Assembly: GCA_016188575.1 (NCBI GenBank)
Contig: JACPHN010000050.1
Span: 1-48,429 of the forward strand
Direction: 5' to 3'
DNA: 48,429 nucleotides
From: Candidatus Schekmanbacteria bacterium
GTDB lineage: Bacteria; CSSED10-310; JACPHN01
Notes under the pieces: model-generated
What the model saw: only the letters and a program-made list of their open reading frames with translations
What the model was told of the DNA's origin: nothing
Databases searched by the model: none
Made by a program: the position numbers and the translations under genes
Part shown: positions 1,487 to 35,565 of the stretch, in pieces
Layout: each line of letters begins with the position of its first letter
Position numbering within the stretch: the first letter of the stretch is position 1

Positions 1487-9025
<7,539 letters not shown>

Positions 9026-9181
9026 GGTTTCCTCCAGCGGCGGCGGCGCTTGCGTATCGGGCTTCTCGATGTACCGATGAGGGGTTCTCCCCGGCACGCC
9101 GGAATGTACTTTGGGTTCCGGAGCCCGCGCAAGGTATGAATGCCCCGCTCCCTGCCTCCCGCCGCAGGCCGGGGAGGCGGT

Positions 9182-9425
9182 GATGAGCTTGACGAGGTTG
9201 TCGTAGACGCCTCGGCCTTCGTCGACCGCCGCTTCGATGGACGCGAAGTCGTCATCGGTGAGCACCATGTCGGCGGCCTCCTTGGCAACCTCGGCGCGGG
9301 CCACGGCGGCGGCGGTCAGCGCGTGATCGCCCGCGACTCCTGAAGGTGGCCGATTACCGCGTTGACGGCGACGACGCCGAAGATCACCGCGGCGTCAACC
9401 ACGGCGCCAAGCCCGGCATCGATAT
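9182..9425 (-). pseudogene. Remnant of a cation-transporting P-type ATPase
   Basis: Two pieces of one protein family remain. Bases 9425-9316 read [20 protein letters not shown], the second-transmembrane region of calcium/magnesium-type P-type ATPases, then a stop. Bases 9304-9182 read [20 protein letters not shown] and [13 protein letters not shown], which in these pumps lie hundreds of residues later, after the hinge region. The phosphorylation and nucleotide-binding domains are missing. A frame change joins the pieces, and a GC-rich hairpin (about 9145-9180) follows the last recognisable residue. The gene is dead and has been cut back to two motifs. Confidence 0.8.
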
Positions 9426-14233: not shown

Positions 14234-17200
14234 ATGCGTACCAAGCCTCTAGCGCTTCTTGCGACCAGCGCCTTCCTGCTCCTCGCGGCGCCGCACCTCG
14301 GTGCGGTCGGCCAGGCGGAAGCCAGGCAGGGCCCCAGCACCATCACGGGTTTTGTCTATCTGAATGGGGACACCGAGCACAGCGGGACAGGTGTGCAAAT
14401 CGACTCGGTCGCCGTCCCCGTCCGGCCATACATCGTCGCGGCTCTGTTGGTCGCGTGCGGCGTCCTGCTGTTTCGCGGGCGGCGGACGAAAATCGCGGTC
14501 GCGGTCAGCGTCGTGGCATTTACGGCCCTTGTCAGCCGCGCCGCGGACAATGTCATTTCCGACAGTACCGGGCGGTTCACGCTCACCCCTGCCCAGGGCC
14601 CCGAGTTTACCCCCGGAACCTATCGCATCACCTACACTCACGAAGGCTACGAAGTCGCCTACTTGCAGGTGGAGGTGCATCAGGACGACCCGAGCACCGT
14701 CACCGTGAGCTCCGTTACCCTGGATGACGCGGCGCAGGAAGTCACCATCGAGCCGCCCGCGGACGTGCCGGATCTTTCCGACACGGCAACGACGAGCCTC
14801 GAAGCCGCCGTCTCCTTCTTGTACACGGGCGAAAACGCCGCGCAGGTCGGAGTTGTCGAGGGGACGATCGACTCCGAGCGCATCGCGGTGCTTCGCGGTA
14901 CCGTCACGGACCGGAATGACGTGGGGCTGGAGGGAGTGGACATCACCGTTCTTGCCCACACCGAGTACGGGAGCACGCTGAGCCGTGCTGATGGCGGCTT
15001 CGATCTGGTGGTCAATGCCGGTGGGCCGCTCGTCATCCGCTACGAAAAGAACGGCTACATGCCTGTGCAGCGCGCCATCCGCCCGATGCAGCAGCAGTAC
15101 CAGTGGCTGCCCCCGGTCGCGATGCTCGCGTACGATTCGGCAGCGACGCTCATCGATCTGGGGAGCACCGCAGGCGGGTTGCTCGTCCATCGCGGTACGC
15201 GAACCACGGGCGACGTGCGACCCGATCGCCAGGCGACCTTGCTCTTCACGCCCGGGACAACCGCGACGGCACGATTCGGCGACGGCCGGGCGACCCCGCT
15301 TGCGCAGATCACGGCACGCGCGACCGAATTCACCATCGGCGCCAACGGCGCCCGCCGCATGCCCGCGGAGCTGCCGCCAAATACCGGCTACACCTACGCC
15401 GTCGAGCTCAGTGTCGACGAGGCCGCGAGCCAGGGTGCCAGCGAGGTCACGTTCGACCAAACCGTGCTCTTCTACCTCGAGAACTTCATCGGCTTCCCGG
15501 TTGGCGGCATCGTGCCGACGGGCTACTATGACCGCGCGCAGGGCGCCTGGGTGGCGTCGCCAAACGGCCGCATCATTCAGGTGCTGGGCATCACCGGTGG
15601 GGCTGCCACCGTGGACGTGAACGGCGACGGCCAGGCCGACACCGGCCAGACTCTCGCCGATCTTGGCATCACCGACGAGGAGCTCCAGACGCTGGCCTCG
15701 CTCTACACGGCGGGCCAGAGCCTCTGGCGCGTGCCGCTCACTCACTTCACGCCGTACGACTGCAACTGGCCATACGGTCCACCGCCGGATGCCGAGTCAC
15801 CCGACGGCGACAAGAAGGACAACAAGGACAACGACTGCAAGAACCAGCAGTCCGGCTCGATCATCGAGTGCGAGGACCAGACGCTTGGCGAGCAGATCGC
15901 CGTGCCAGGCACGTCGTACACGCTCAACTACCGCAGCGACCGCGTCCGCGGCCGGCAGGACTACTACGAGCTCGAGATCATCCTGCGTGGGGACGAGGTC
16001 CCGGATAGCCTGAAGCGCATCGACCTCGAAGTGGAAATCGCCGGACGGCTCTACTCGTACAGCTTCCCGAAGACCAAGACGACCTTTACCTTCGAATGGG
16101 ACGGCAGGGATGCGTACGGCCGTCCGGTACAAGGAACCCAGGTCGCGCAAATCAACCTCGGCTACACCTACGACGCTGTGTACTATGAGTCTTCCGAGGC
16201 GTGGGAGGCAAGCTTCAGTCAGCCGAGCGAGTCGGGCGGCACGATCACGGCCGACGAGGGAGCCGGGGAAATCACGATCTGGACGACGATGACCTCGACG
16301 CTCGGCGTGTGGGACGCGCGAGCCCAGGGACTGGGCGGCTGGACGCTGAACGTCCACCATGCTCTGGAAAGCAACAGCGGGATCCTGCAGTACGGGGACG
16401 GATCCCAGCGCAGCCCTGAACAGGCGGACGCGCTGTTGGATACCGTGGCGGGCACCGGGGCTGCCAACGGTGAGCCCGGCGACTATTGCTGCGACAATGG
16501 ACCGGCAACCGAAGCGAAGCTCAACTACCCGACCGGCCTGGTCTTCGATGCCGACGGTAACTACTATGTCGCCGACTCGGACAACAACCGGATCCGCATG
16601 GTGGATACTACGGGCGTGATCACGACCTTTGCCGGGACCGGGCAGACCGAACCCGACGTCGACCACGTCAACGCCCAGCTTTCCGCGCTCTATAGCCCGA
16701 GCGACGTCGCGGTGGATGCGCTCGGCAACGTATTCATCTGTGATGCGTTTCACAACAAGATTCGCAAGGTGGACACCGGTGGAACCATCACAACCGTGGC
16801 GGGGACGGGCATTGCAGCCTATTCAGGCGACGGCAGCCAGGCGCGGTTCGCAAGTCTGAACAACCCGCTCGGCATCGACGTGGACAAGGAGGGCAACCTC
16901 TATATCGCCGATACGCTCAACAACCTCGTCCGCCGGGTAGGCACTGACGGCATCATCACCACGGTGGTCGGCAAGCGGCCGCCGGTCGCGGGCGACACAG
17001 GCGACGGTGGGCCGGCCACTCAGGCGCGGCTCGACCAACCAATGGATGTCGTGGTCGACGACGCCGGCGCTCTGTACGTGTTCGACGAAAATAACTGCCG
17101 CGTCCGCAAGGTCGGATCCGACGGCATCATCAGGACGTATGCCGGCAGCGGCACCTGCGGTGACCCCACGGGCGATGGTGGGCCCGCCACTCTGGCCACG

Positions 17201-20200
17201 CTCAATCACGCGACGTCCGGCGCCCTGGACGGCATGGGGAACCTCTACCTCACCGACACGGACAATGACGTGATCCGCAAGGTCTCCGCCGCCGACGGCA
17301 TCATCACGACCGTCGCCGGGACGGGAACGGCGGGCTTCGCCGGTGATGGCGGCTCGGCGCTGGCGGCAAACTTCAACCACCCGACCGGGCTTGCCGTTAC
17401 CTCAGGAGGCGCCGTGTACGTGGCTGACGCCGCCAACAACCGCATTCGCGCGTTTGTAAGCTCGGCTTCCGGACCACCCTACGTTTCCAGCGATGGCCGC
17501 GAGGTATACGAGTTTGACGGTCTCGGACGTCACACGCGCACGCTGGACGCCCAGCGCGGAACCGAACGCCTGAGCTTCAACTATGATGTGGCCGGGAGGC
17601 TTACCGAAGTCGTTGACCGCTTCGGCAACACCACCACCATCGAACGGAGCCCGACCACCGGCAACCCCACGGCCATCGTCGCGCCGGGCGGACAACGCGT
17701 CAGCCTCGAGCTGAATGCGGAGGGCTATTTGACGACCGCCGGGATACCGAGTGGCGGCGGTTATGCCGCAAGCTACGGCACGGGCACGCAAACGGGCCTG
17801 CTGGCGTCGTTCTCGACGCCGAGCGGGTGCACCTCGCAACTCGGTTACGACAGCGACGGCCGGCTCGTGACCGATCGCGGCTGCGAGGAGGTTTCCATCG
17901 ACCTCGCGCGCGCCGAGACCGAAACCGGCTACGTCGTGTCGCTCACCAATGGCGGCACCGAGACGACCAGCTACGAGCTGTCCGCGGATGCGGAAGCGAG
18001 CACCTCGACGCGCACGGTAACCGACCCGGCGGGCGCGACGTTGGTGACGACACACGGCAGCGATGGGACGGACACTTTCGCGCTTCCGGACGGCACCGAG
18101 CAGACCCTGGTCCGCAGCGGCGATCCACGCTGGGGAATGATGGCACCGGTGCTGTCGACGTTCACGAGCAAACTGCCGTCCGGCCTGACCTTCACCGCCG
18201 AGCGGACGCGAACCGCGCTGCTGGCGAACACGGTCGACCCGTTCACGCTCATTCGTCTCACCGACACACTGGCGATCAACAACAAGGTGTACAACGTCGA
18301 CTGGACCTACTCGGGGGCCGGCCGCACCGCGGGTGAGAAAGCGAATGCCGCGGTCGGCGAGCTCGCCGTCACGACACCGGAGGGCCGCGAATTTCATGCT
18401 GGGGTCGACGCCGACCGCAGGCCGACATCGGTGACCGAAGCCTTGGGGCTCGACGCGCGGCTCTACGGATACGACGACGCCGGTCGCCTGACGAGCATTG
18501 CTCAAGGCTCCAGCTCGATTGCGGGCGCCTACGACACGCAGGGCCGGCTCACCTTCCTGCAGAACGCGGAAGGTCAGCGCCTCGATTTCGGCTATGACGC
18601 CGCTGATCGGCTCACCGCAATGGCGCTGCCGTCCGCGCGCGCGTACACCTTTGGCTATCGGGCCGACGGCCGCCTCACCTCGGTGACCATGCCGAGCACG
18701 GCGGTGCACGGTCTCGGGTATGATAACCTCGGGCGGCGGACCACGTACTCGCTCCCGGGCGGTGGCACCTATACGGACGACTACGACGGCCACGGCCGCG
18801 CGGTGTCGACGACGTTGCCGAGCGGCCGCAGTGTGACTCGCGCTTTCGACACCGGCGGGCGACCGACCGGGTGGTCCTACCCCGAAGCGTCCACCTCGTT
18901 CACCTACAACACGCCGACGCAGCGCATTTCAGACGCTTCCTGGACGCGCGCCGGAGCCGCCACGCCGCAGGCGATGAGCTTCACCTACGACGGCAAGCTT
19001 GTCAGCAGCGTCAACGCCACCGGCACGACCAACGGGCGTTACAGCTACGACTATGACGCCAGCTTCCGCGCCTCGAGCCGGCGGCTGGACACCAACGCGA
19101 AGGTGTCGATCGACCGCGACAATGACGGTCTCATCACCGGGTTCGGAGACTTCACCCTCGGCAGAACCGGGCCAGGTGGAGCCGTGAGCAGCGTTACGGA
19201 CGGTACCATGACCGCGGAGTATGAGTACGACACGGCGGGACGGCTGCAGACCCGGCGCCTCGCGATTGGCGGGCAGACCGTCTATGAGCTCGTCCTTACG
19301 CGCGACACCGCGGACCGCGTCACGAGCACGACGGAGACGGTAACTACCGGCAGCGCGGTGACGCGGAGCTTTACCTACGATGACGACGGTCAGTTGCTCG
19401 GCGTCACGCAGAACAGCAGCGTCGCCGAGACCTACCTGTACGATGTCAACGGCAACCGCACCAGCCGCAAGGTTGGTTCCGAGGGCACCATGGCGGCGAG
19501 CTACGACCTCCAGGACCGCCTGACCGGGCTCGGCGGCACCAGCTACAGCTTCAGCGCCGACGGTTATCTGACGGCGCGGGGTAACGACGTGTTCTCGTAC
19601 GGGACACGAGGCGAGCTGCTCGAGGCGGACCTGGGCTCGGGTCAGACGATCAGCTACACCTACGACGCCTTTGGCCGGCGCGTCGCGCGCACCGATGTCG
19701 AAGGCACGACGCAGTTCCTCTATGGCAATCCAGAAAATCACTTCGAGGTTAGCGAAGCTCGGCTCCCCGGTGGCGAGCTGATGTCGATCTACTACGATGA
19801 CTACTGGGCCGCCTACGCCTTCGACCGCGGCGGCAGCCGTTACTACGTCGCAACGGACCACGCCGGTAGCCCGCGCGTCATCTTCAGCAATACGGGCCAG
19901 ATCCTGCGGCAAGTCACAAGGGACAGCTTCGGCCGCATTACCGCCGATACCAACCCGTCGGTGTGGTTCCCAATCGGTTTCGCCGGCGGCCTCGAGGATG
20001 AGGATACGGGGCTCGCGAAATTCGGCGTGCGCGATTACGACCCCGAAGCCGGGCGCTTTGCAGCGCGCGACCCGCTCTTCTTCAAGAGCGAGACGTTGAA
20101 CCACTTCGTGTACGTGAACAACAATCCGGTGAGTTGGCGAGATCCGCTCGGGCTGACAACGCTCGGCGGAGGCATCTGCGCGGGCGGATGTCTCGGTGGT

Positions 20201-20551
20201 GAGATCCAGATCGGAACCAACGGGACTACCATCTGCTTCGAAGTCGGAGTGGGCACTCCGGGAGCCTCGGTGTCGCTCAATCCCTTCAGCAGCACGGCCG
20301 ACCCGTCGGGCGTCAAGTTTGGTGCGGAGGCTGGTGTCGGCTACGGCGTGTTTGGCGCGACCGCCGGCTACGAGGTCAGTATCGATCAGAGCGGCTGTGC
20401 GAAGGCCGGTCCCAAGGCGGAGGTGCAGTTTGGTCTCGGCAAGTACGACATTCTCAACCAAGGTGCCAAGTTCGATTACGGAGGCGATGTCGACTGGAAG
20501 TTCCAGGCCGGTGGGAAGCTGTCGATGACCGTGTGCAACCAGCTCTGGTAG
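14234..20551 (+). CDS. Giant secreted NHL-repeat/RHS (YD-repeat) protein with teneurin-like layout
   Basis: The ATG at 14234 follows GGGGGAG and starts a signal peptide (MRTKPLALLATSAFLLLAAP); total 2105 residues. Residues about 64-102 hold two more hydrophobic segments joined by FRGRRTK. Next come carboxypeptidase-regulatory-like beta domains (such as GTVTDRNDVGLEGVDITVLA), a FlgD-like segment (FEWDGRDAYGRPV), and six NHL repeats (about 735-1072, pattern NLYIADTLNNLVRRV). Many YD repeats follow (about 1090-1970, such as YDAAGRL types), then the RHS core end FGVRDYDPEAGRFAARDPL. The final 130 residues are glycine- and beta-rich with no toxin motif I know. RHS shells encapsulate and deliver C-terminal cargo. 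No immunity-like gene follows, so a structural or adhesive role is as likely as a toxin. Confidence 0.88.
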   Translation: MRTKPLALLATSAFLLLAAPHLGAVGQAEARQGPSTITGFVYLNGDTEHSGTGVQIDSVAVPVRPYIVAALLVACGVLLFRGRRTKIAVAVSVVAFTALVSRAADNVISDSTGRFTLTPAQGPEFTPGTYRITYTHEGYEVAYLQVEVHQDDPSTVTVSSVTLDDAAQEVTIEPPADVPDLSDTATTSLEAAVSFLYTGENAAQVGVVEGTIDSERIAVLRGTVTDRNDVGLEGVDITVLAHTEYGSTLSRADGGFDLVVNAGGPLVIRYEKNGYMPVQRAIRPMQQQYQWLPPVAMLAYDSAATLIDLGSTAGGLLVHRGTRTTGDVRPDRQATLLFTPGTTATARFGDGRATPLAQITARATEFTIGANGARRMPAELPPNTGYTYAVELSVDEAASQGASEVTFDQTVLFYLENFIGFPVGGIVPTGYYDRAQGAWVASPNGRIIQVLGITGGAATVDVNGDGQADTGQTLADLGITDEELQTLASLYTAGQSLWRVPLTHFTPYDCNWPYGPPPDAESPDGDKKDNKDNDCKNQQSGSIIECEDQTLGEQIAVPGTSYTLNYRSDRVRGRQDYYELEIILRGDEVPDSLKRIDLEVEIAGRLYSYSFPKTKTTFTFEWDGRDAYGRPVQGTQVAQINLGYTYDAVYYESSEAWEASFSQPSESGGTITADEGAGEITIWTTMTSTLGVWDARAQGLGGWTLNVHHALESNSGILQYGDGSQRSPEQADALLDTVAGTGAANGEPGDYCCDNGPATEAKLNYPTGLVFDADGNYYVADSDNNRIRMVDTTGVITTFAGTGQTEPDVDHVNAQLSALYSPSDVAVDALGNVFICDAFHNKIRKVDTGGTITTVAGTGIAAYSGDGSQARFASLNNPLGIDVDKEGNLYIADTLNNLVRRVGTDGIITTVVGKRPPVAGDTGDGGPATQARLDQPMDVVVDDAGALYVFDENNCRVRKVGSDGIIRTYAGSGTCGDPTGDGGPATLATLNHATSGALDGMGNLYLTDTDNDVIRKVSAADGIITTVAGTGTAGFAGDGGSALAANFNHPTGLAVTSGGAVYVADAANNRIRAFVSSASGPPYVSSDGREVYEFDGLGRHTRTLDAQRGTERLSFNYDVAGRLTEVVDRFGNTTTIERSPTTGNPTAIVAPGGQRVSLELNAEGYLTTAGIPSGGGYAASYGTGTQTGLLASFSTPSGCTSQLGYDSDGRLVTDRGCEEVSIDLARAETETGYVVSLTNGGTETTSYELSADAEASTSTRTVTDPAGATLVTTHGSDGTDTFALPDGTEQTLVRSGDPRWGMMAPVLSTFTSKLPSGLTFTAERTRTALLANTVDPFTLIRLTDTLAINNKVYNVDWTYSGAGRTAGEKANAAVGELAVTTPEGREFHAGVDADRRPTSVTEALGLDARLYGYDDAGRLTSIAQGSSSIAGAYDTQGRLTFLQNAEGQRLDFGYDAADRLTAMALPSARAYTFGYRADGRLTSVTMPSTAVHGLGYDNLGRRTTYSLPGGGTYTDDYDGHGRAVSTTLPSGRSVTRAFDTGGRPTGWSYPEASTSFTYNTPTQRISDASWTRAGAATPQAMSFTYDGKLVSSVNATGTTNGRYSYDYDASFRASSRRLDTNAKVSIDRDNDGLITGFGDFTLGRTGPGGAVSSVTDGTMTAEYEYDTAGRLQTRRLAIGGQTVYELVLTRDTADRVTSTTETVTTGSAVTRSFTYDDDGQLLGVTQNSSVAETYLYDVNGNRTSRKVGSEGTMAASYDLQDRLTGLGGTSYSFSADGYLTARGNDVFSYGTRGELLEADLGSGQTISYTYDAFGRRVARTDVEGTTQFLYGNPENHFEVSEARLPGGELMSIYYDDYWAAYAFDRGGSRYYVATDHAGSPRVIFSNTGQILRQVTRDSFGRITADTNPSVWFPIGFAGGLEDEDTGLAKFGVRDYDPEAGRFAARDPLFFKSETLNHFVYVNNNPVSWRDPLGLTTLGGGICAGGCLGGEIQIGTNGTTICFEVGVGTPGASVSLNPFSSTADPSGVKFGAEAGVGYGVFGATAGYEVSIDQSGCAKAGPKAEVQFGLGKYDILNQGAKFDYGGDVDWKFQAGGKLSMTVCNQLW

Positions 20552-26125: not shown

Positions 26126-27313
26126 ATGAAGATCGAATCCATACGCCTGAAGAACTACAAGGTGTTTCGCGACGTGCATCTGAAAGACATTCCATCTTTC
26201 CTCGTCGTGGTCGGCGCTAACGGTTCGGGCAAAACAACGCTGTTCGATGTGTTCGGCTTCCTGCACGATTGCCTGAAAGGCACGGTGCGCCAGGCGCTGG
26301 ACAAGCGCGGTCGGTTCCGCGAAGTGTTGAGCCGCAATGCCGATGGCGACACGATCCTGATCAAGATTCAGTACCGCATGCTGATTACTGGCGTAGAGCG
26401 ACTGGTGACGTATTCGCTGGAGATCGGCGAACAAGGCGGCTCGCCCGTCGTGCAGCGCGAATTGCTGCGCTACAAACGCGGGCGCTATGGCAGTCCGTTC
26501 CATTTTCTGGATTTTGCCGGTGGCGAGGGTTACGCCATTACCAATGAAGAGGATTTCAATCGGGAAGATGAAGACCTTGAGCGTGAAGCCCAGCGGGTGG
26601 GTGCCGATACCTTGGCGATCAAGGGCCTGGGCCAGTTCGAGCGCTTCAAGGCGGCGAACGCCTTCCGGCAGTTGATCGAATCCTGGCATGTGTCGGACTT
26701 TCATATCAGCGCCGCCCGCGGCCGCAAGGAGGCGGCGGGCGATTCGGAGCATCTGTCGGAGACCGGGGACAATCTGCCGCGCGTCGCGCAGTATCTGTTC
26801 GAGCAGCATCCACAAACCTTCCAGCGCATCCTCGATACCATGGCACGGCGAGTGCCGGGCGTGGCTTCGGTGGAGCCGCGCCTGATGGATGATGGCTACC
26901 TCACGCTGCGCTTTCAGGATGGCTCATTCAAGACGCCGTTCCTGGACCGTTACGTGTCGGATGGCACCATCAAGATGTTTGCCTACCTGGTCCTGCTGCA
27001 CGATCCCAAACCCCATCCATTGCTGTGCGTCGAAGAGCCGGAAAACCAGCTATATCCCCGCCTGATGGGCGAGTTGGCGGAGGAGTTCCGGCTTTATGCC
27101 CATCGTGGCGGACAGGTGCTCGTGTCGACACACTCGCCGGACTTCCTGAATGCGATGCGACTCGACGAGGTGTGCTGGCTGGTCAAGCGCGAAGGTTGCG
27201 CTGAGATTCGCCGCGCCCGCGACGATGCGCAGATCGCCGCCTACATGGCCGAAGGCGATCAGATGGGCTTTCTCTGGAAGCAGGGCTTCTTCAAGGGAGC
27301 CGATCCGGCATGA
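26126..27313 (+). CDS. AAA family (AAA_21/RecF-like) ATPase of a two-gene defence-like operon
   Basis: The 395-residue protein starts MKIESIRLKNYKVFRDVHLK, the opening strand of SMC/RecF-type ATPases, with Walker A VVGANGSGKTTLFD (about 29-41). The C-terminal lobe has the Walker B region LLCVEEPENQLYP and the H-loop VLVSTHSPDFLNAM. The middle part (about 100-200) is charged. The downstream gene overlaps by four bases (ATGA) and encodes a DUF4276 protein. ATPases of this type paired with TOPRIM-like partners occur in phage-defence systems such as AbiL, RloAB and PARIS, where the ATPase senses infection and controls the effector. No experimental role can be claimed here. Base composition is lower in GC than the purine operon, suggesting transfer. 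Confidence 0.85.
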   Translation: MKIESIRLKNYKVFRDVHLKDIPSFLVVVGANGSGKTTLFDVFGFLHDCLKGTVRQALDKRGRFREVLSRNADGDTILIKIQYRMLITGVERLVTYSLEIGEQGGSPVVQRELLRYKRGRYGSPFHFLDFAGGEGYAITNEEDFNREDEDLEREAQRVGADTLAIKGLGQFERFKAANAFRQLIESWHVSDFHISAARGRKEAAGDSEHLSETGDNLPRVAQYLFEQHPQTFQRILDTMARRVPGVASVEPRLMDDGYLTLRFQDGSFKTPFLDRYVSDGTIKMFAYLVLLHDPKPHPLLCVEEPENQLYPRLMGELAEEFRLYAHRGGQVLVSTHSPDFLNAMRLDEVCWLVKREGCAEIRRARDDAQIAAYMAEGDQMGFLWKQGFFKGADPA

Positions 27314-27894
27314 AGGAGCTCGTGTTTCTGCTCGAAGAAGAATCTGCGAAGGCCATGCTGGAGAGCTTGTTGCCGCGCATCCTCCATCCCGATATTCGGC
27401 CGCGTTACGTCCCCTTCGAGGGCAAGCAAGATCTTGAGCGGCAGATGGTCAGGCGCCTGCGCGGTTACGCGAATCCGCATGCACGCTTCATCGTGCTGCG
27501 CGATCAGGACAGCGCGCCGGATTGCGGGGCGGTAAAGGAAAAGCTGATCGAGCGCTGCCAGGAAGCCGGGAAAGCAGGGAAAACCCTGGTGCGCATCGCC
27601 TGCACGGAATTGCAAGCGTTCTACCTGGCCGATCTGCGCGCTGTCGAGCAAGGGCTTGGGCTCGACAAGCTGGCGAGCCAACAGGGCTCGGCCAAGTTTC
27701 GCTATCCGGATGGCCTCGCCAATCCCAGCAAGGAGTTGACGACGCTGACTGCAGGCGAATACCAAAAGGTCAGTGGATCACGCTCTATCGGGAGGTTTCT
27801 CGACCCGGCGAATGAGCGCTCACCCAGTTTCAGGAGCTTCATCAAGGGCATTCGGCGGATGGAAAGCGAAATGCTCGCGTTGCCGGATGCGTAG
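27310..27894 (+). CDS. DUF4276-like protein, probable TOPRIM-fold effector partner of the ATPase
   Basis: The 194-residue protein starts MKELVFLLEEESAKAMLESLL, with an acidic Glu motif on the first strand and helix. FIVLRDQDSAPDC at about 57-69 provides a D-x-D motif, the layout of TOPRIM nucleases. RIACTELQAFYLADL and the ending FIKGIRRMESEMLALP are typical of DUF4276. Translation is coupled to the ATPase gene. In related pairs the TOPRIM protein is the toxic effector. The family name is from memory of its motifs; the nuclease role is inference. Confidence 0.75.
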   Translation: MKELVFLLEEESAKAMLESLLPRILHPDIRPRYVPFEGKQDLERQMVRRLRGYANPHARFIVLRDQDSAPDCGAVKEKLIERCQEAGKAGKTLVRIACTELQAFYLADLRAVEQGLGLDKLASQQGSAKFRYPDGLANPSKELTTLTAGEYQKVSGSRSIGRFLDPANERSPSFRSFIKGIRRMESEMLALPDA

Positions 27895-29456: not shown

Positions 29457-29853
29457 ATGACGGGAGTCATCAGGGGCTTCCCATACCGCGCCCAAGCGCC
29501 TCGCAGCACCGGGCAAGCGACGATCGAGCGCAAGCGGCACATGATGCGAAGGCCGCGTGGGATGCCGGCACGGAATGATCTCACGACGCAGAGCCATGCC
29601 CTGTTCGAGATGGCCGCTCAGGGGACGCGAGCGCTCCTTGGTCGCGAGGCTCTGCGATGAACGAGGCGCAGATCCTCTTGGAAATCGACGCGGACCTCCG
29701 CAAGGCGAAGTACGTCCGCTACCTGGAGGGCAAGCCGACCCCCAGGTGTTCTTCGCGCTGTCCGGAAGCTACCTGCAGTCTCTTTCCCGCATGAGCTTCG
29801 GCGAAACCGCGAGCGCGGTGCGGCTGTCCAGTCGCGGAGACATTAGCAGGTGA
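29457..29853 (+). other. Two short coupled frames before the glycosyltransferase, probably remnants or a frameshifted small gene
   Basis: A frame ending at 29660 (DLTTQSHALFEMAAQGTRAL) overlaps by ATGA a second frame starting MNEAQILLEIDADLRKAKYV at 29657. After about 29 residues the likely coding frame seems to shift: the continuation QVFFALSGSYLQSLSRMSFG reads on to a stop at 29853 that overlaps the GTG start of the glycosyltransferase. Overlapping starts and stops suggest a former operon. I do not recognise either protein. Confidence 0.35.
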
Positions 29854-31547
29854 CATCCTTGTCGGCGGACCAGCTTGCCGAGCAAGCGCGGCGATATCTG
29901 TCCCACCCGCCGCACCCGCGTGTGGCGGCCCTGGCGATCCCGCTCTTTCAGCGAGCGGTGGCGCTGGCGCCGGCGCGTATTGATCTCCGCCTTGACCTCG
30001 CGACAGCCTATTTCAGGCTCGGGCAGAGCGCACAGGCGATCGAAACTTGTGACGAGACGCTGGCGCGGTACCCCGATGCGGTCGAGGCGCGGCTTTTTCG
30101 CTGCATGTACCAGATCCGGATCGTCTACCACAGCGCCGCGGAGGTCACCGCCGCTCGCGAGGCCTACGGATATCAGCTCGCGGCACTGACTGCCATGATC
30201 GATCGCGAGCCGGCTCGCCTGGAGCGGTTGGCAGGCTGGATCCACAGGGCCCGCCCCTTCTATCTGCCTTACCAGGGCGAAAACGACGTGGAGCTGCAGC
30301 GAACGTACGGAAGCCTCGCTTGCCGGGCCATGGCGGCCGCGTGTCCGGACTGGACAGGCACCCGAGCGATGCCGCCGGCGCCGCCTGGATCACCCCTGCG
30401 GGTCGGGGTAGTGTCCGGATACTTTCGCAATCACGCCATCTGGAGCGCCATCATCCGCGGCTGGCTGACGGGGCTCGACGCCAGCCGCTTCGCCCTGCAC
30501 GGCTACTCGCTGTCGGCGCGACAGGACACGTGCACCGCCGAGGCGCGCCACCGGTGCGCCCGATTTCATGCTGGCGAGCGGTCCTTTCGCGACTGGTGCG
30601 AGACGATCTCGGCCGACCGACTCCACGTTCTGCTCTATCCGGAGGTTTGCGAGCATGCGCTGGCGACGCGCCTTGCCATGCTGCGTCTGGCACCGGTGCA
30701 GGGGATGGCGGGCGGCCATTGCGTGACCAGCGGGCTGCCGACGATGGACTACTATCTCGGCGGCGACCTGATGGAACCTGCAGATGCAGCGAGCCACTAC
30801 AGCGAGCGCCTCGTGCGACTTCCCAACCTGGGGTATGCGTACCGCCAACCGCTCGTCGCGCCTCCTCAACGCATTCGCGAGGACTTCGGGTTGCGGCCCG
30901 AGGCGGTCGTCTACCTGAGCCCCCACTCGGTGTTCAAGTACCTGCCTCAACACGATGGCGTTTATGCGGACATTGCGGAGCGGGTGCGCGACAGCCAGCT
31001 CGTGTTTGTCAAACACCTCAAGGTCGAGGCGCTGAGCCGCCAGCTCGAACGGAGGATCACGGCGGCGTTCACGGCGCGGGGACTCGACCCCAAACAGCAC
31101 CTGGTATTTCTGCCGCGCATGGGGCCATCGGCCTACAACGACATCCAGTGTCTTGCCGACATCTATCTCGACGCGATCGGCTGGAACGGCGGAACCACCA
31201 CCGCCACGGCCTTGGGCTATGGGCTGCCGGCGGTGACGCTGAGCGGGCCGGTGTCCCGCGGGCGAATGGGAACCGCCATGCTGCGGCGCCTGGGCATCTT
31301 CGAGACCATTGCCGGCACGCCGGCGGGTTACGTCGACATCGCCGCGAGACTCGGGCATGACAAGCACTTTCGGCGCGAGCTGCGCCAGCGAGTTGGCGCC
31401 GCGAACCATCTACTCTACGATGACCCGGCTTATGCCGGGGGCCTCGCCTCGTTCCTGGAGAAAGCGGTCGCCGGCTCCCCCGGCCTGTCTTCCTCCGCGA
31501 GCGGGAGCAGGTGCGGGGGCCTCCCCGCGCAAGAGGGGAAACGTTGA
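29850..31547 (+). CDS. SPINDLY-type glycosyltransferase (GT41) with N-terminal TPR repeats
   Basis: The 565-residue protein starts with a GTG overlapping the preceding stop. Residues about 1-110 are TPR-like helices (FQRAVALAPARIDLRLDLAT, AIETCDETLARYPDAVEARL). From about 180 it matches the catalytic domain of O-GlcNAc-transferase/SPINDLY proteins: LRVGVVSGYFRNHAIWSAII, FALHGYSL, VTSGLPTMDYYLGGDLMEP, HYSERLVRLPNLG and LDAIGWNGGTTTATALGYGLP. Family members transfer GlcNAc, fucose or other sugars to Ser/Thr of proteins, or build surface glycans. The last 25 residues are translated from a GC-rich hairpin like the dispersed repeat. A RiPP-like precursor gene starts 134 bases downstream; a joint role is inference. 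Confidence 0.85.
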   Translation: MTSLSADQLAEQARRYLSHPPHPRVAALAIPLFQRAVALAPARIDLRLDLATAYFRLGQSAQAIETCDETLARYPDAVEARLFRCMYQIRIVYHSAAEVTAAREAYGYQLAALTAMIDREPARLERLAGWIHRARPFYLPYQGENDVELQRTYGSLACRAMAAACPDWTGTRAMPPAPPGSPLRVGVVSGYFRNHAIWSAIIRGWLTGLDASRFALHGYSLSARQDTCTAEARHRCARFHAGERSFRDWCETISADRLHVLLYPEVCEHALATRLAMLRLAPVQGMAGGHCVTSGLPTMDYYLGGDLMEPADAASHYSERLVRLPNLGYAYRQPLVAPPQRIREDFGLRPEAVVYLSPHSVFKYLPQHDGVYADIAERVRDSQLVFVKHLKVEALSRQLERRITAAFTARGLDPKQHLVFLPRMGPSAYNDIQCLADIYLDAIGWNGGTTTATALGYGLPAVTLSGPVSRGRMGTAMLRRLGIFETIAGTPAGYVDIAARLGHDKHFRRELRQRVGAANHLLYDDPAYAGGLASFLEKAVAGSPGLSSSASGSRCGGLPAQEGKR

Positions 31548-31557
31548 AGGGGACCTC

Positions 31558-31586
31558 TTGCGCCTCTCGACGGGTGCGGCTAGCAT
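31558..31586 (+). promoter_or_regulatory. Possible promoter for the RiPP-like precursor
   Basis: TTGCGC at 31558-31563 and TAGCAT at 31581-31586 are 17 bases apart, about 95 bases before the precursor ATG. Only the first three bases of the -35 and four of six in the -10 match, so this is weak. The gap 31548-31680 otherwise contains GC-rich inverted repeats. Confidence 0.3.
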
Positions 31587-31680
31587 GTTTCCGGGTCGGC
31601 TACCGGGGCGCGGGGCGCGCCGCGAGAAGCGCGAGGCGTTTTCTGACTGCACGGCAGCAACACTCGACATGAGGATCGTC

Positions 31681-31875
31681 ATGACCAACCCGGATCGCGA
31701 AGCCAACACCACACCCTCCGACGTAACCGCCACCGATGGCGAGCGCCAGCGAGCAGTGCAGCGCAAACCGTGGCCGGGCGCGCCTCGCCTGACCAGGCTC
31801 ATGGTGGCGGACACGAAGTCCGGCGGCACGATATTCACCTCCATGGAGGGCACCTGCTCCTCTGCTCCTTCCTGA
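31681..31875 (+). CDS. Candidate RiPP precursor peptide with lasso-type leader
   Basis: The ATG at 31681 sits five bases after AGGA; an earlier ATG at 31669 is less well placed. The 64-residue product has a polar leader ending KPWPGAPRLTRLMVADT, which fits the lasso leader pattern Y/W-x-x-P-x-L with a Thr near the cut site; that pattern is recognised by the leader-binding B1 protein. The likely core is SGGTIFTSMEGTCSSAPS, rich in Ser and Thr and ending in Ser. The paeninodin leader has the same P-x-L-x-x-L-x-V-x-x-T spacing, and its C-terminal Ser is phosphorylated by an HPrK-like kinase. Ring geometry is not ideal: Glu56 is tenth from Ser47 or ninth from Gly48, where the cut would be three rather than two residues after Thr. 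It converges on the cyclase-like operon, which is unusual. Confidence 0.55.
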   Translation: MTNPDREANTTPSDVTATDGERQRAVQRKPWPGAPRLTRLMVADTKSGGTIFTSMEGTCSSAPS

Positions 31876-31916
31876 TCACCCACGCCGGGCAATCCCGGCG
31901 CGACGCGTCCACCGGC

Positions 31917-33740
31917 TCAGCGGCAGCGCTGCTGCCAGTCCGCCGACAGCAAGGTGATCAGGGCGGCCTGTCGGTGCGCAAAGCCCCGCCGCTCGCGAAC
32001 ATCGGCGACCGTGGAGTGGGGCACCGGGTCGGACGCGAGCAGGCGTTTCATGGCAGGGTAATCGATCCACTCGAAAAGCCGCGGGGGGTCGACGAGGCGG
32101 GCGCGCCGGACCAGCTCGAGAATCGCCTCATCCGCGCACCGCACCAGGCGCCGGACTCGCTGTGATTCCGCCCTCTTGGGCGCGCTCAGGATCGCCTCCG
32201 GCACCCGCCCTGCAAGCGCCCGGCGAAAAAGTGACCGCTCCATGCCGTGGCGAATGAACTGCTCCGGCGGCATGCCCAGGCAGAGCTCCACGAGCTCGCG
32301 ATCGAGCAGCGGGTAGCGATAGCGGATGCCGAGCGCCGCGCCGGCTGCCGCCCACGATTCGACGCGATGCGTGAGGCGGGTATCGATCAGCGTCGCAAGC
32401 TGGCTCGACCGAAAACCACCTGGCTGCGCGGCATAGCCCAGGGGCGCGAGGAGCGGGTCGGAAAGGATCGCGCGGTTGAAGGCGGCGTCGATGTAGGGCA
32501 AGGCCACGAAAGCGAGGGCAGAGGAACGTGAAGTCAATGGGCCGGGCAGGCCAACAGCTCCGAGCACATCGCGAAGCAGCCAGGAGGCGACATCCCGAAG
32601 CCAACCGCGGCGGCGGCGCGGAGCGTGCAGGCGGGACTCGCGCCAGGCCGTGCCCCAGCGGCCCTGGCGCAGCAGCTCGAACCAGGCGGCCCAGCGGCGC
32701 GAGGTGACGAGCTCGTCGCCGCCCCAGCCGGTAAGGATGACCCCGACGCCATCCGCCCGTGCCTGCGCGAGCACGGTGCGCTCGTACCGCATCATGTGCA
32801 CAGGAAAGCGCGTGAAATCCACGAGATCAGTGCGCACGATCGCTGCCGCCGAGAGCCGCTGCGAGCGCAGGGGAACGCCGAGCTCCGCCGCCAAAAGGGC
32901 CGCGGCGGCATGCGTGTCATCGCCGTCCGGATGCGCCACGTCCGGCGGCGCCAGCCAGGTGTAGCCGGCAGTCAGGGCGCGCCCCTGGCGAGTCAATGCC
33001 CGGGCCGCCAGCACCGCAACCGCAGAGGAGTCCACGCCGCCGCTCACGTGCGCGCCGATCCTCGCCGCACCGGAAATACAGCGATCTACCGCCGTCTCCA
33101 GGCCGTCGCGCAGGGTTTCCGCGTACTCGTCGTCGCGCTTGAACCGGATCTCCGGAGCATCCTCCCAGCGTTGCCAGCGGCGCAGCCTCGCGTCCTGCCC
33201 ACAAACGGTCAGGGCGTGCCCCGCAGGCAGCTTGCGGACGCCATCCCAGAAGGTCGCCGCGCCGAGACCCGGAAGGAGCTCCGCCGGGCGCTGCAGGTAC
33301 GCCGCCAGCACCGGCTCGTTCAGGCGACGGGGCATGCCGCCTGCCGCGTCCAGGCTTTCAACGTCGCTTGCAAAGGCAACGCGGCCCGCGGTGACGCAGT
33401 AGACAAGCGGCCGGGCCCCGATCGGGTCGCGAGCGAGAAAAAGCTCCCGCGATGCCGTGTCCCATACCGCGACGGCGAAGTCCCCGAGAAGCCGCCGCGG
33501 GCATTCCGCTCCCCACCGGCCGTACGCGTGCGCAATGAGCTCTTCATCAGCACATTGCGGCGGCAGGCACAGCGCGCGCGTCAGCTCGGCACGATTGTCG
33601 AGCCAGCAATCGGTGAGCGCGCAGAAATTCCCGACAGCGCGCCAGCCACTCGCGCCCCGCGGCGAGGCGCGGCCTGCAGTGCTGCCATCGGCCAGCGGCT
33701 CGACCGGGCCTGTCGTGCGGTCACAAACGCCAAGGATCAT
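31917..33740 (-). CDS. Asparagine synthetase homologue, lasso-cyclase-like
   Basis: I place the start at the ATG at 33740 (MILGVCDRTTG), where the amidotransferase-like fold begins; a frame to 33818 overlaps the kinase gene. The 607-residue protein has an N-terminal Ntn-hydrolase-like domain (FLARDPIGARPLVY) but lacks the N-terminal Cys of true glutaminases. It then has an ATP-pyrophosphatase domain with PP-loop HVSGGVDSSAVAV, ILTGWGGDEL and RYRYPLLDRELVELCL. Loss of the Cys with a kept synthetase site is the pattern of lasso cyclases (McjC type), which adenylate a side-chain carboxylate. It is last in an operon with a sulfotransferase and an HPrK-like kinase, the company of tailored lasso peptides. 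True asparagine synthesis without glutamine use is the alternative. Confidence 0.82.
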   Translation of the reverse strand: MILGVCDRTTGPVEPLADGSTAGRASPRGASGWRAVGNFCALTDCWLDNRAELTRALCLPPQCADEELIAHAYGRWGAECPRRLLGDFAVAVWDTASRELFLARDPIGARPLVYCVTAGRVAFASDVESLDAAGGMPRRLNEPVLAAYLQRPAELLPGLGAATFWDGVRKLPAGHALTVCGQDARLRRWQRWEDAPEIRFKRDDEYAETLRDGLETAVDRCISGAARIGAHVSGGVDSSAVAVLAARALTRQGRALTAGYTWLAPPDVAHPDGDDTHAAAALLAAELGVPLRSQRLSAAAIVRTDLVDFTRFPVHMMRYERTVLAQARADGVGVILTGWGGDELVTSRRWAAWFELLRQGRWGTAWRESRLHAPRRRRGWLRDVASWLLRDVLGAVGLPGPLTSRSSALAFVALPYIDAAFNRAILSDPLLAPLGYAAQPGGFRSSQLATLIDTRLTHRVESWAAAGAALGIRYRYPLLDRELVELCLGMPPEQFIRHGMERSLFRRALAGRVPEAILSAPKRAESQRVRRLVRCADEAILELVRRARLVDPPRLFEWIDYPAMKRLLASDPVPHSTVADVRERRGFAHRQAALITLLSADWQQRCR

Positions 33741-33783
33741 GTTTGGGTCAGCTCTCCTCGCTGCGGCCCCGCTGTGCGGGCCG

Positions 33784-34713
33784 TCAGCTCCGACACCAGG
33801 CCTCCAGACGGTCGACACAAGCTTCGAGATGATCCCATCCCCACGGCAAGTCCAGGCGCTCGACCGGCACGCGCGCCGCGATCTGCGCCGCCCAGGACAA
33901 GTGTCCCACGCAATCGCCGCTGACTCGGCCGAGCTCGATCCCGGCAGTCAGCCGCCCGATGCCGTCGAAGCCTCTGAAGCCTCGCTTGCGGTCGGCGGCG
34001 AAAAGCTCCAGGTCGTCGCCCCGTTGCTCGTGCAGGAGCGCGATTCGGGACAGCGGCAACGGCGCGGGCGCGGCCGGGTGAAGGCAGCGCCGCAGATGCA
34101 ACGATTCCCGCGCGGCGGCGCCACGTTCCAGGCCGCCAAAGGCCGCCTGATCCAGCGTGTCCGGCCACAGCAGCAGCCAGGGCGCCTGCGGGTGCGCCAG
34201 CAGCACTGCGCCGCCCGCATCCGCTGCCGCCGAAACCCGGAGCAGCCCATCGGCGAGCAGCGCGTGACCGCGCGCTGCCAGCGCGCCGGCCAGGGTCGAC
34301 TTGCCGCTGCCGCTCGGCCCCGCCAGCGCCACGGCCCGGCCGCATACACCGACAGCCGACGCCTCGAGGAGCCAATCACCCCGCAAGATGCACGCCAAGG
34401 TAAACACCGGGTGCAGCAGGAACAGGCGGACCGCTGCTGCCTCCGCCCCGCCGGCGGGCTCCACCGCGATCTCACGGCCGCCGTCGCGCACCAGATAGCG
34501 CGCCACGCCCTCCAGCCGCCAGAGCGCCTCGCCCTTGCCCAACTCGCAGGTCGTCCGCCGGCTGCGCGCGCGAGCGAGAGTGGGCGGAACGTCCTCAAGG
34601 ACAATCCGGATATCGGCAGCGGAGTCCGCGCACGGCATGGCGGCGAGCTCGGGAAGGGCAAGCTCGCTGTCCAAGATCAGACCGCAGTACCGGTAGCGGT
34701 GGTGCATCACCAC
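33784..34713 (-). CDS. HPr kinase/phosphorylase-like kinase, candidate RiPP tailoring kinase
   Basis: The 309-residue protein starts MVMHHRYRYCGLILDSELAL, the opening common to HPrK-related kinases of peptide clusters. It has Walker A LAGPSGSGKSTLAGAL (about 150-165) and HALLADGLLRV, where HPr kinases have an Asp-Asp pair; the second Asp is Gly here. The N-terminal DRTGG-like domain of true HPr kinase is absent and there is no ptsH nearby. Known relatives (the paeninodin kinase) phosphorylate the C-terminal Ser of the lasso precursor, and the nearby precursor ends in Ser. It starts six bases after the sulfotransferase stop and precedes the cyclase-like gene. The changed Asp calls for caution about activity. 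Confidence 0.78.
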   Translation of the reverse strand: MVMHHRYRYCGLILDSELALPELAAMPCADSAADIRIVLEDVPPTLARARSRRTTCELGKGEALWRLEGVARYLVRDGGREIAVEPAGGAEAAAVRLFLLHPVFTLACILRGDWLLEASAVGVCGRAVALAGPSGSGKSTLAGALAARGHALLADGLLRVSAAADAGGAVLLAHPQAPWLLLWPDTLDQAAFGGLERGAAARESLHLRRCLHPAAPAPLPLSRIALLHEQRGDDLELFAADRKRGFRGFDGIGRLTAGIELGRVSGDCVGHLSWAAQIAARVPVERLDLPWGWDHLEACVDRLEAWCRS

Positions 34714-34719
34714 GTCAGC

Positions 34720-35565
34720 TCAGAGCCCAAGGGCCGCCAGACGCGTCTCGACTATCGCGCTCTCGCGCTCGAGCGCCTGGCGAAGTGCCGGAGACAACAA
34801 GCGTGCTCCATCGCCACAGCCGCCGCTGCGAAAGAACCGCGGTACCGCGCGGGGAGCCTCGGGGAAGCGGTGTGCGGATTCCTGGGCCCGCAGGTTCTCG
34901 AAGCTCGACGCGGCGATGGCGGCCGCGATTGCCCCATCGCCCTGCTCGAGGCCGAGAAAACGCACCGCCGCTCGAAATGTGGGCAGGGGCGACTCCCGCA
35001 TGGCGCGAAAGCGCATGAGGTGGATGGGCATGGGCGCCTCGATCCAGCTCAGCACGTGCGCGGACCAGGAAAGCAGCGTCTGCGGCAACTGGGCCGGCAG
35101 GCCGCGCCTGCCGCGAGCAAGCCCGAAGGTCGGGTCCAACATGCGCTCGGCGCCGCCGTCGGCCGAGCAGCCCCAATGATTGGCCGCGGATGCCGCAACA
35201 TCGAGTGGATCGCGCAGAATGTAGATGGCCGCGAAGTCCGGCGCGCTCCCGAGCAGCGGCCGGCCGTCGGCGAGCCGGGTGTAGGCGTCGTGTACCTTGC
35301 GCAACAGCAGCGGGAGCGGATGTTCCGCCGCCACCTCCCGGTCGGCTTCCGGCCGCAGCCGCGCAATCTCCTCAGGCGTCAGGAAGGCCGATGGGATACC
35401 GAGCCTGGTGTCGAATAGCCGGCGATCGGCGGCGATGGGAGTGCGCAGGGGCAGCGACGCGATATCGACCGGCGCCTGCTCGGGAAACAGCAGATTCGCC
35501 AGGAACACGCGCAGCCAGGTGTTGCCGGACTTCGGGTATGAGGCAAGCCAGATCGTTCGGGGCAT
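34720..35565 (-). CDS. PAPS-dependent sulfotransferase
   Basis: The 281-residue protein has the 5'-phosphosulfate loop at its start (IWLASYPKSGNTWLRVFLAN) and the 3'-phosphate motif YILRDPLDVAASAANHWG (about 117-134). It also has the family's later LRFRAMRESPLPTF-type segment, here HLMRFRAMRESP. It moves sulfate from PAPS to a hydroxyl or amine. Sulfotransferases appear in some lasso clusters with HPrK-like kinases. It is first of the three-gene operon. The acceptor could be the peptide, its sugar, or something unrelated. Confidence 0.85.
   Translation of the reverse strand: MPRTIWLASYPKSGNTWLRVFLANLLFPEQAPVDIASLPLRTPIAADRRLFDTRLGIPSAFLTPEEIARLRPEADREVAAEHPLPLLLRKVHDAYTRLADGRPLLGSAPDFAAIYILRDPLDVAASAANHWGCSADGGAERMLDPTFGLARGRRGLPAQLPQTLLSWSAHVLSWIEAPMPIHLMRFRAMRESPLPTFRAAVRFLGLEQGDGAIAAAIAASSFENLRAQESAHRFPEAPRAVPRFFRSGGCGDGARLLSPALRQALERESAIVETRLAALGL

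Follow-up and report, generated by a model that had tools for sequence, protein, structure and literature searches.

A probable split lasso peptide cluster with a sulfotransferase, an altered HPrK-like protein and a neighbouring GT41 gene in Candidatus Schekmanbacteria

We describe a bacterial locus that we take, with somewhat better than even confidence, to be a split lasso peptide cluster belonging to a multiply tailored, sulfotransferase-bearing clade. A lasso-type cyclase, a short precursor, an HPrK-like protein and a PAPS-type sulfotransferase lie together, and the genes for leader processing are found on other contigs of the same genome. A fuller picture would have the lasso peptide sulfated and also given a sugar of the O-GlcNAc or fucose type, a combination not known on lasso peptides, with the altered HPrK-like protein presenting the peptide to the sulfotransferase and a single B2 protease serving scattered clusters in trans; taken as a whole, we consider this picture rather doubtful.

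Organization of the locus

The window, that is, the whole stretch of 48,429 nucleotides that was analysed, is one entire contig (C154) of a 9.2-Mb Candidatus Schekmanbacteria genome in 275 contigs. The phylum is sparsely sampled: of the 98 genomes chosen as nearest, only seven others belong to it. A first-pass annotation of the sequence had placed a precursor, a lasso-cyclase-like synthetase, an HPrK-like gene, a sulfotransferase and, upstream, a SPINDLY-type glycosyltransferase between positions 29850 and 35565, and all of these genes are indeed there. The forward strand carries the GT41 (OGT/SPINDLY-like) glycosyltransferase (565 aa, 29850..31547) followed by the precursor (64 aa, 31681..31875), whose ATG has a Shine-Dalgarno-like GAGG (31671..31674) 6 nt on its 5' side. 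On the reverse strand an operon encodes the cyclase (633 aa, 31917..33818), the HPrK-like protein (309 aa, 33784..34713) and the sulfotransferase (281 aa, 34720..35565); the GTG start of the cyclase lies inside the 3' end of the HPrK-like gene, as in a coupled operon. All local frames are open and tightly packed. Between the two convergent units there is a short GC hairpin, cgccgggcaatcccggcg (31883..31900), which has no T run and for which the terminator call was negative. No sigma-70-like promoter was found at the locus, which says little for a high-GC, non-model genome.

The cyclase and the precursor

The best NCBIfam match of the cyclase is NF033535, the lasso peptide isopeptide bond-forming cyclase (2.6e-72), with a score below the curated 525-bit cut-off. 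The synthetase had been described as lacking the glutaminase Cys, and its N-terminus does read MSTVW. No Cys follows the initiating Met, in contrast to the MCGI of all four AsnB paralogues in this genome; the cyclase start resembles that of the paralogue on contig C150 (MTVW). The SGGVDSS loop is intact. In a 98-sequence tree, the comparison with true asparagine synthetases that had been proposed, the genome's own four AsnB paralogues fall outside with a support of 100, and the window cyclase groups with lasso cyclases as sister (93) to a Pseudomonadales/Gammaproteobacteria group (loci L040, L036-038 and L043-L101), although the tree is a quick one and the window branch is long. These sequence comparisons support assignment as a lasso-type macrolactam cyclase, and the tree and the missing N-terminal Cys led us to reject an AsnB or surface-glycan identity.

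The 64-residue frame had been proposed to hold a lasso-type leader, a core and a C-terminal Ser. The window contains a single match to the corresponding pattern, [WYF]-x2-4-P-x-[LIVM]...T...G...[DE]...S-stop, against 0.09 expected from dinucleotide shuffles of all 48 kb, or 0.02 when the match has to end in P-x-S or P-S; the pattern was composed after the family had been seen, and the expected counts are a guide. The Trp, P-x-L, Thr, Gly and Glu of leader and core are all present, with the W-P spacing one residue longer than usual. Precursors of the sister loci have Pro mostly at -14, Thr at -3, Gly at +1 and Glu at 8-10. Because the same register places Trp at -17, Thr at -3, Gly at +1 and Glu at 9 in the window precursor, with Pro alone displaced by one, we favour the core GGTIFTSMEGTCSSAPS with a G1-E9 ring, the core start being ambiguous between registers that would use E8, E9 or E10. 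W-x-x-P leaders are a mark of paeninodin-like precursors (PMC13381572), and BsfA is an exception to the Thr(-2) rule (PMC10368454).

Conservation of the precursor in relatives is borne out by layout and core spacing and not by profile. The precursor of L040, ...KAWRKPRVKRILEGVVDVA-SGGSSGPGAESSTYTHIS, has a core spacing, SGG-x6-E-x7-S, identical to that of SGGTIFTSMEGTCSSAPS in the window; sixteen seed precursors from L036-038 take the form W-x-x-P-x-[ILV]-R...T-x-x-G...S, and similar precursors in L043, L047, L048 and L101 end in Y-R-P-S or P-S-Y-R-P-S. The C-terminal Ser is conserved in these related precursors. A profile search seeded with the L036-038 set misses the window precursor, whose membership of the family therefore rests on the layout. 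The source genome holds no second precursor copy (next match E 0.13), and the codon-usage model made no call for the frame. The first-pass annotation pointed out that precursor and cyclase operon face each other from different strands; this arrangement is real and usual for the clade. In L036, L037 and L038, which come from Pseudomonadales MAGs, a single cyclase is surrounded by as many as eight distinct lasso-like precursors encoded in both orientations.

Shared synteny had been suggested as a check, and sister cyclases do have sulfotransferases, HPrK genes and similar precursors beside them, the nearest analogue being L040 on a complete chromosome. These Pseudomonadales and Gammaproteobacteria loci (L040, L036-038, L043-L101) resemble the window in their sister cyclases, sulfotransferase, HPrK, glycosyltransferase, T-x-x-G...E...S precursors and distant B2, but differ in having GT8 in place of GT41, a second sulfotransferase and, in L036-038, several precursors per locus; no description of them was found in the literature searched. 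Among known systems, the paeninodin-type clusters (PadeK, ThcoK, SyanK; pseudomycoidin with PsmN) likewise combine a W-leader precursor ending in Ser with a lasso cyclase and an HPrK homologue, and putative sulfotransferase genes have been noted in some Firmicutes clusters (PMC8498205, PMC9266682, PMC13381572). The window departs from them in its altered HPrK motif, the GT41 gene beside the precursor, the location of B1 and B2 outside the cluster and the opposite strand of the precursor.

Candidate tailoring genes

The sulfotransferase (PF00685, 1.4e-14) retains both PAPS motifs, YPKSGNTW (5'-PSB loop) and RDPLDVAAS (3'-PB). By sequence, its closest solved relatives are the glycopeptide sulfotransferases Teg14, Teg12 and StaL, which also modify a peptide natural product; the match is weak (3e-8), however, and their substrate is a non-ribosomal glycopeptide. 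A homologue is found in 11 of 80 related loci, the six best (L036-L041) among them, and in most cases it immediately adjoins an HPrK gene. A role of the sulfotransferase in tailoring the lasso product is predicted and well supported. Putative sulfotransferase genes have been noted at the start of some Firmicutes lasso clusters (PMC8498205, PMC9266682), and we found no report of a sulfated or GT41-modified lasso peptide in the open-access literature. In L036, L037 and L038, two HPrK genes are accompanied by a further sulfotransferase-like gene and by one resembling Asp/Asn beta-hydroxylases.

The SPINDLY-type assignment of the upstream gene holds: it matches PF13844 (1.8e-26), and its closest PDB entries are OGT and SPINDLY (1e-21 to 1e-22). 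The residues of note in GT41 enzymes are the active-site His and the UDP-binding Lys, and both match when the catalytic domain is aligned to OGT. The protein shares this domain with OGT, SPINDLY and bacterial OGT homologues, but has only about two TPR units and lies beside a RiPP precursor. Does it belong to the cluster? The possibility that the lasso cluster has the cyclase, HPrK-like protein and sulfotransferase but no functional tie to the adjoining GT41 gene is a serious one, which we place only a little short of even. It draws on the distribution of the gene, since a GT41 beside a lasso cyclase was seen in the source genome alone. Among genomes of Acidobacteriota, Pseudomonadota and Chloroflexota, to which L044, L040 and L041 belong as labelled, close homologues occur in 5 of 396, 17 of 398 and 0 of 400 genomes, respectively. 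Of 25 homologue neighbourhoods from other genomes, one alone (L162) has a lasso-type B1 with HPrK, and no cyclase is in view there; the sister clade, moreover, has GT8 instead. Against this stand the co-directional precursor 133 bp downstream, the fact that this is the only GT41 gene of the genome, and the glycosyltransferase found in the same position in L040, where GT8 and then Sulfotransfer_3, a second sulfotransferase, come after the precursor in the same orientation, convergent with the cyclase. GT8 is also present in L043 and L047, and Sulfotransfer_3 in L047, so a glycosyltransferase, of another family, is recurrent in such lasso clusters. Because GT8 genes occupy the same place in sister loci, membership of the GT41 gene in the cluster, and with it glycosylation of the product, is plausible by analogy. 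Glycosylation of a lasso peptide Ser has been mentioned (PMC13352647), and a C-terminal Ser can be phosphorylated by HPrK homologues and that phosphate then glycosylated by PsmN (PMC8498205, PMC9266682). In L162 (1166-4950, Acidobacteriota), the GT41 homologue is convergent with the HPrK-B1 pair, and no cyclase is present on the 6.7-kb contig.

The HPrK-like gene had been read as a kinase, and this is upheld in part. The HPrK fold is present in the structure model (pLDDT 86.5), which matches HprK/P (E 5e-6) and PEPCK (Z 18.5). In the motif alignment, however, the H-K-D-D of lasso kinases is replaced by E-K-D-G: the P-loop Lys and the first Asp are kept, and His is changed to Glu and the second Asp to Gly. 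All four residues are reported to be essential in lasso kinases (PMC9266682). With two of four catalytic residues gone, the protein may not be an enzyme, phosphorylation is not a given, and sulfation is better predicted than phosphorylation. The altered form recurs beside sulfotransferases: the corresponding HPrK also has DG in L036-038, Gln in place of His in L040 and DT in a fusion in L098 (Scalindua). After dereplication by hand, the motif is altered in 4 of the 11 lineages whose HPrK is linked to a sulfotransferase and in 2 of about 52 other lineages (Fisher p 0.007, a post hoc test); many sulfotransferase-linked HPrK have an intact motif. It may be hypothesized from this association that the altered form serves the sulfotransferase, and its pairing with, and in one case fusion to, a sulfotransferase would point to a possible reuse of the kinase scaffold in a switch from phosphate to sulfate; neither the HPrK tree nor the sulfotransferase tree is strong enough to place the motif change in time. 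In L098 (8949-10751, reverse strand; Candidatus Scalindua), the fusion of sulfotransferase and HPrK-like domain is one 600-aa frame whose HPrK part reads SDT, and it adjoins an intact HPrK gene.

A protein that still works as a kinase, phosphorylating the C-terminal Ser as in paeninodin while sulfate goes elsewhere, would fit the retained P-loop and first Asp, the intact HprK/PEPCK fold and the conserved C-terminal Ser. The E-K-D-G motif lowers the standing of such an active kinase, and we judge it unlikely: two residues reported as essential are changed, and in each of L036-038 and L098 the altered HPrK is accompanied by another that is intact. The three hydroxyl-modifying enzymes proposed for the cluster in the first-pass annotation are thus reduced to one that is well supported (the sulfotransferase), one that is plausible (GT41) and one that is doubtful as an enzyme.

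Predicted leader-processing genes outside the cluster

Neither B1 nor B2 is found in the window, as had been noticed before. A search of the whole genome recovered one B2 gene (PF13471, 5.9e-24; contig C250, adjoining a peroxiredoxin-like gene) and four B1 genes on C95, C150, C160 and C230, all contigs other than the window. The B1 genes of C95, C150 and C160 each belong to a further lasso-like cluster that has a precursor, an HPrK gene and a cyclase of its own; that of C230 stands alone. Since none of the four lasso clusters of the genome has its own B2, the single copy presumably serves all of them, although in a genome that is 94% complete a further B2 could be missing. The three additional B2-less clusters (L023, L024 and L025) are lasso-like loci in their own right, and one product of the C150 operon, 699 aa long, weakly resembles a squalene-hopene cyclase.

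The same separation is seen in relatives on sequences labelled as chromosomes. In G102 the only B2 lies at 826 kb and B1 genes at 839 and 854 kb, and the L040 cyclase is located near 1.745 Mb, about 0.9 Mb from B2; in G106, G107 and G113, 1.0-1.9 Mb separate B2 from the cyclases retrieved. Pseudomycoidin is reported to have formed in vivo without leader and leader peptidase (Zyubko et al. 2019, in the account given by PMC13381572), so a local B2 would not be strictly required. The window cluster itself lies mid-contig, and its split is therefore not an assembly artefact.

The cluster had been called split, decayed or of a new type. The split stands; decay is not needed, because B1 and B2 exist elsewhere and the same split is found on complete chromosomes of relatives. 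A decayed cluster that has lost its leader-processing genes, with the rest on the way out, would account for the lack of local B1 and B2 and for the altered HPrK motif, but it is improbable given that the local frames are open and tightly packed, the motifs of cyclase, sulfotransferase and GT41 are intact, and the split recurs. The locus might also be no RiPP cluster at all but an operon in which an asparagine-synthetase-like protein and a sulfotransferase help to make a surface glycan or some small molecule, the supposed precursor being a chance frame. GT41 and sulfotransferase would suit glycan loci, and the codon-usage model did not call the frame, but this reading is made very improbable by the cyclase tree and missing Cys, the precursor pattern and the layout shared with L040, and the relatives' lasso cyclases with HPrK and sulfotransferase alongside.

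The window thus probably holds a split but intact lasso cluster of a multiply tailored clade. This locus and the sister clade suggest that lasso clusters may share a distant B1/B2 pair, and cluster-finding rules that demand B1 and B2 beside the cyclase would miss such clusters.

Proposed pathway

For the split cluster we infer the following route. The precursor would be expressed from the forward strand, its W-leader bound by a PqqD-like B1 protein from another contig, perhaps the orphan on C230, and the leader removed by the single B2 protease of the genome. The local cyclase would then join Gly1 to Glu9 in the favoured register, giving a ring with an 8-residue tail. The sulfotransferase would place a sulfate on a Ser or Thr hydroxyl, most likely that of the C-terminal Ser used by the related kinases, with the altered HPrK-like protein acting as its substrate-binding partner and not as a kinase. 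GT41 may add an O-linked sugar to another Ser or Thr.

Other features of the window

A 1523-aa protein encoded at 1487-9304 (reverse strand) consists of a HAMP repeat whose 276-bp unit recurs about 14.7 times; its gene lies directly upstream of one for a GAF-HisKA-HATPase protein with three receiver domains, the two forming a poly-HAMP hybrid kinase pair. At 14234-20551 (forward strand), a 2105-aa protein displays a teneurin-like domain series (TTR, FN-plug, NHL, YD-shell/RHS). An AAA_21 ATPase and DUF4276 gene pair (26126-27894, forward strand) is located upstream of the lasso-like locus.
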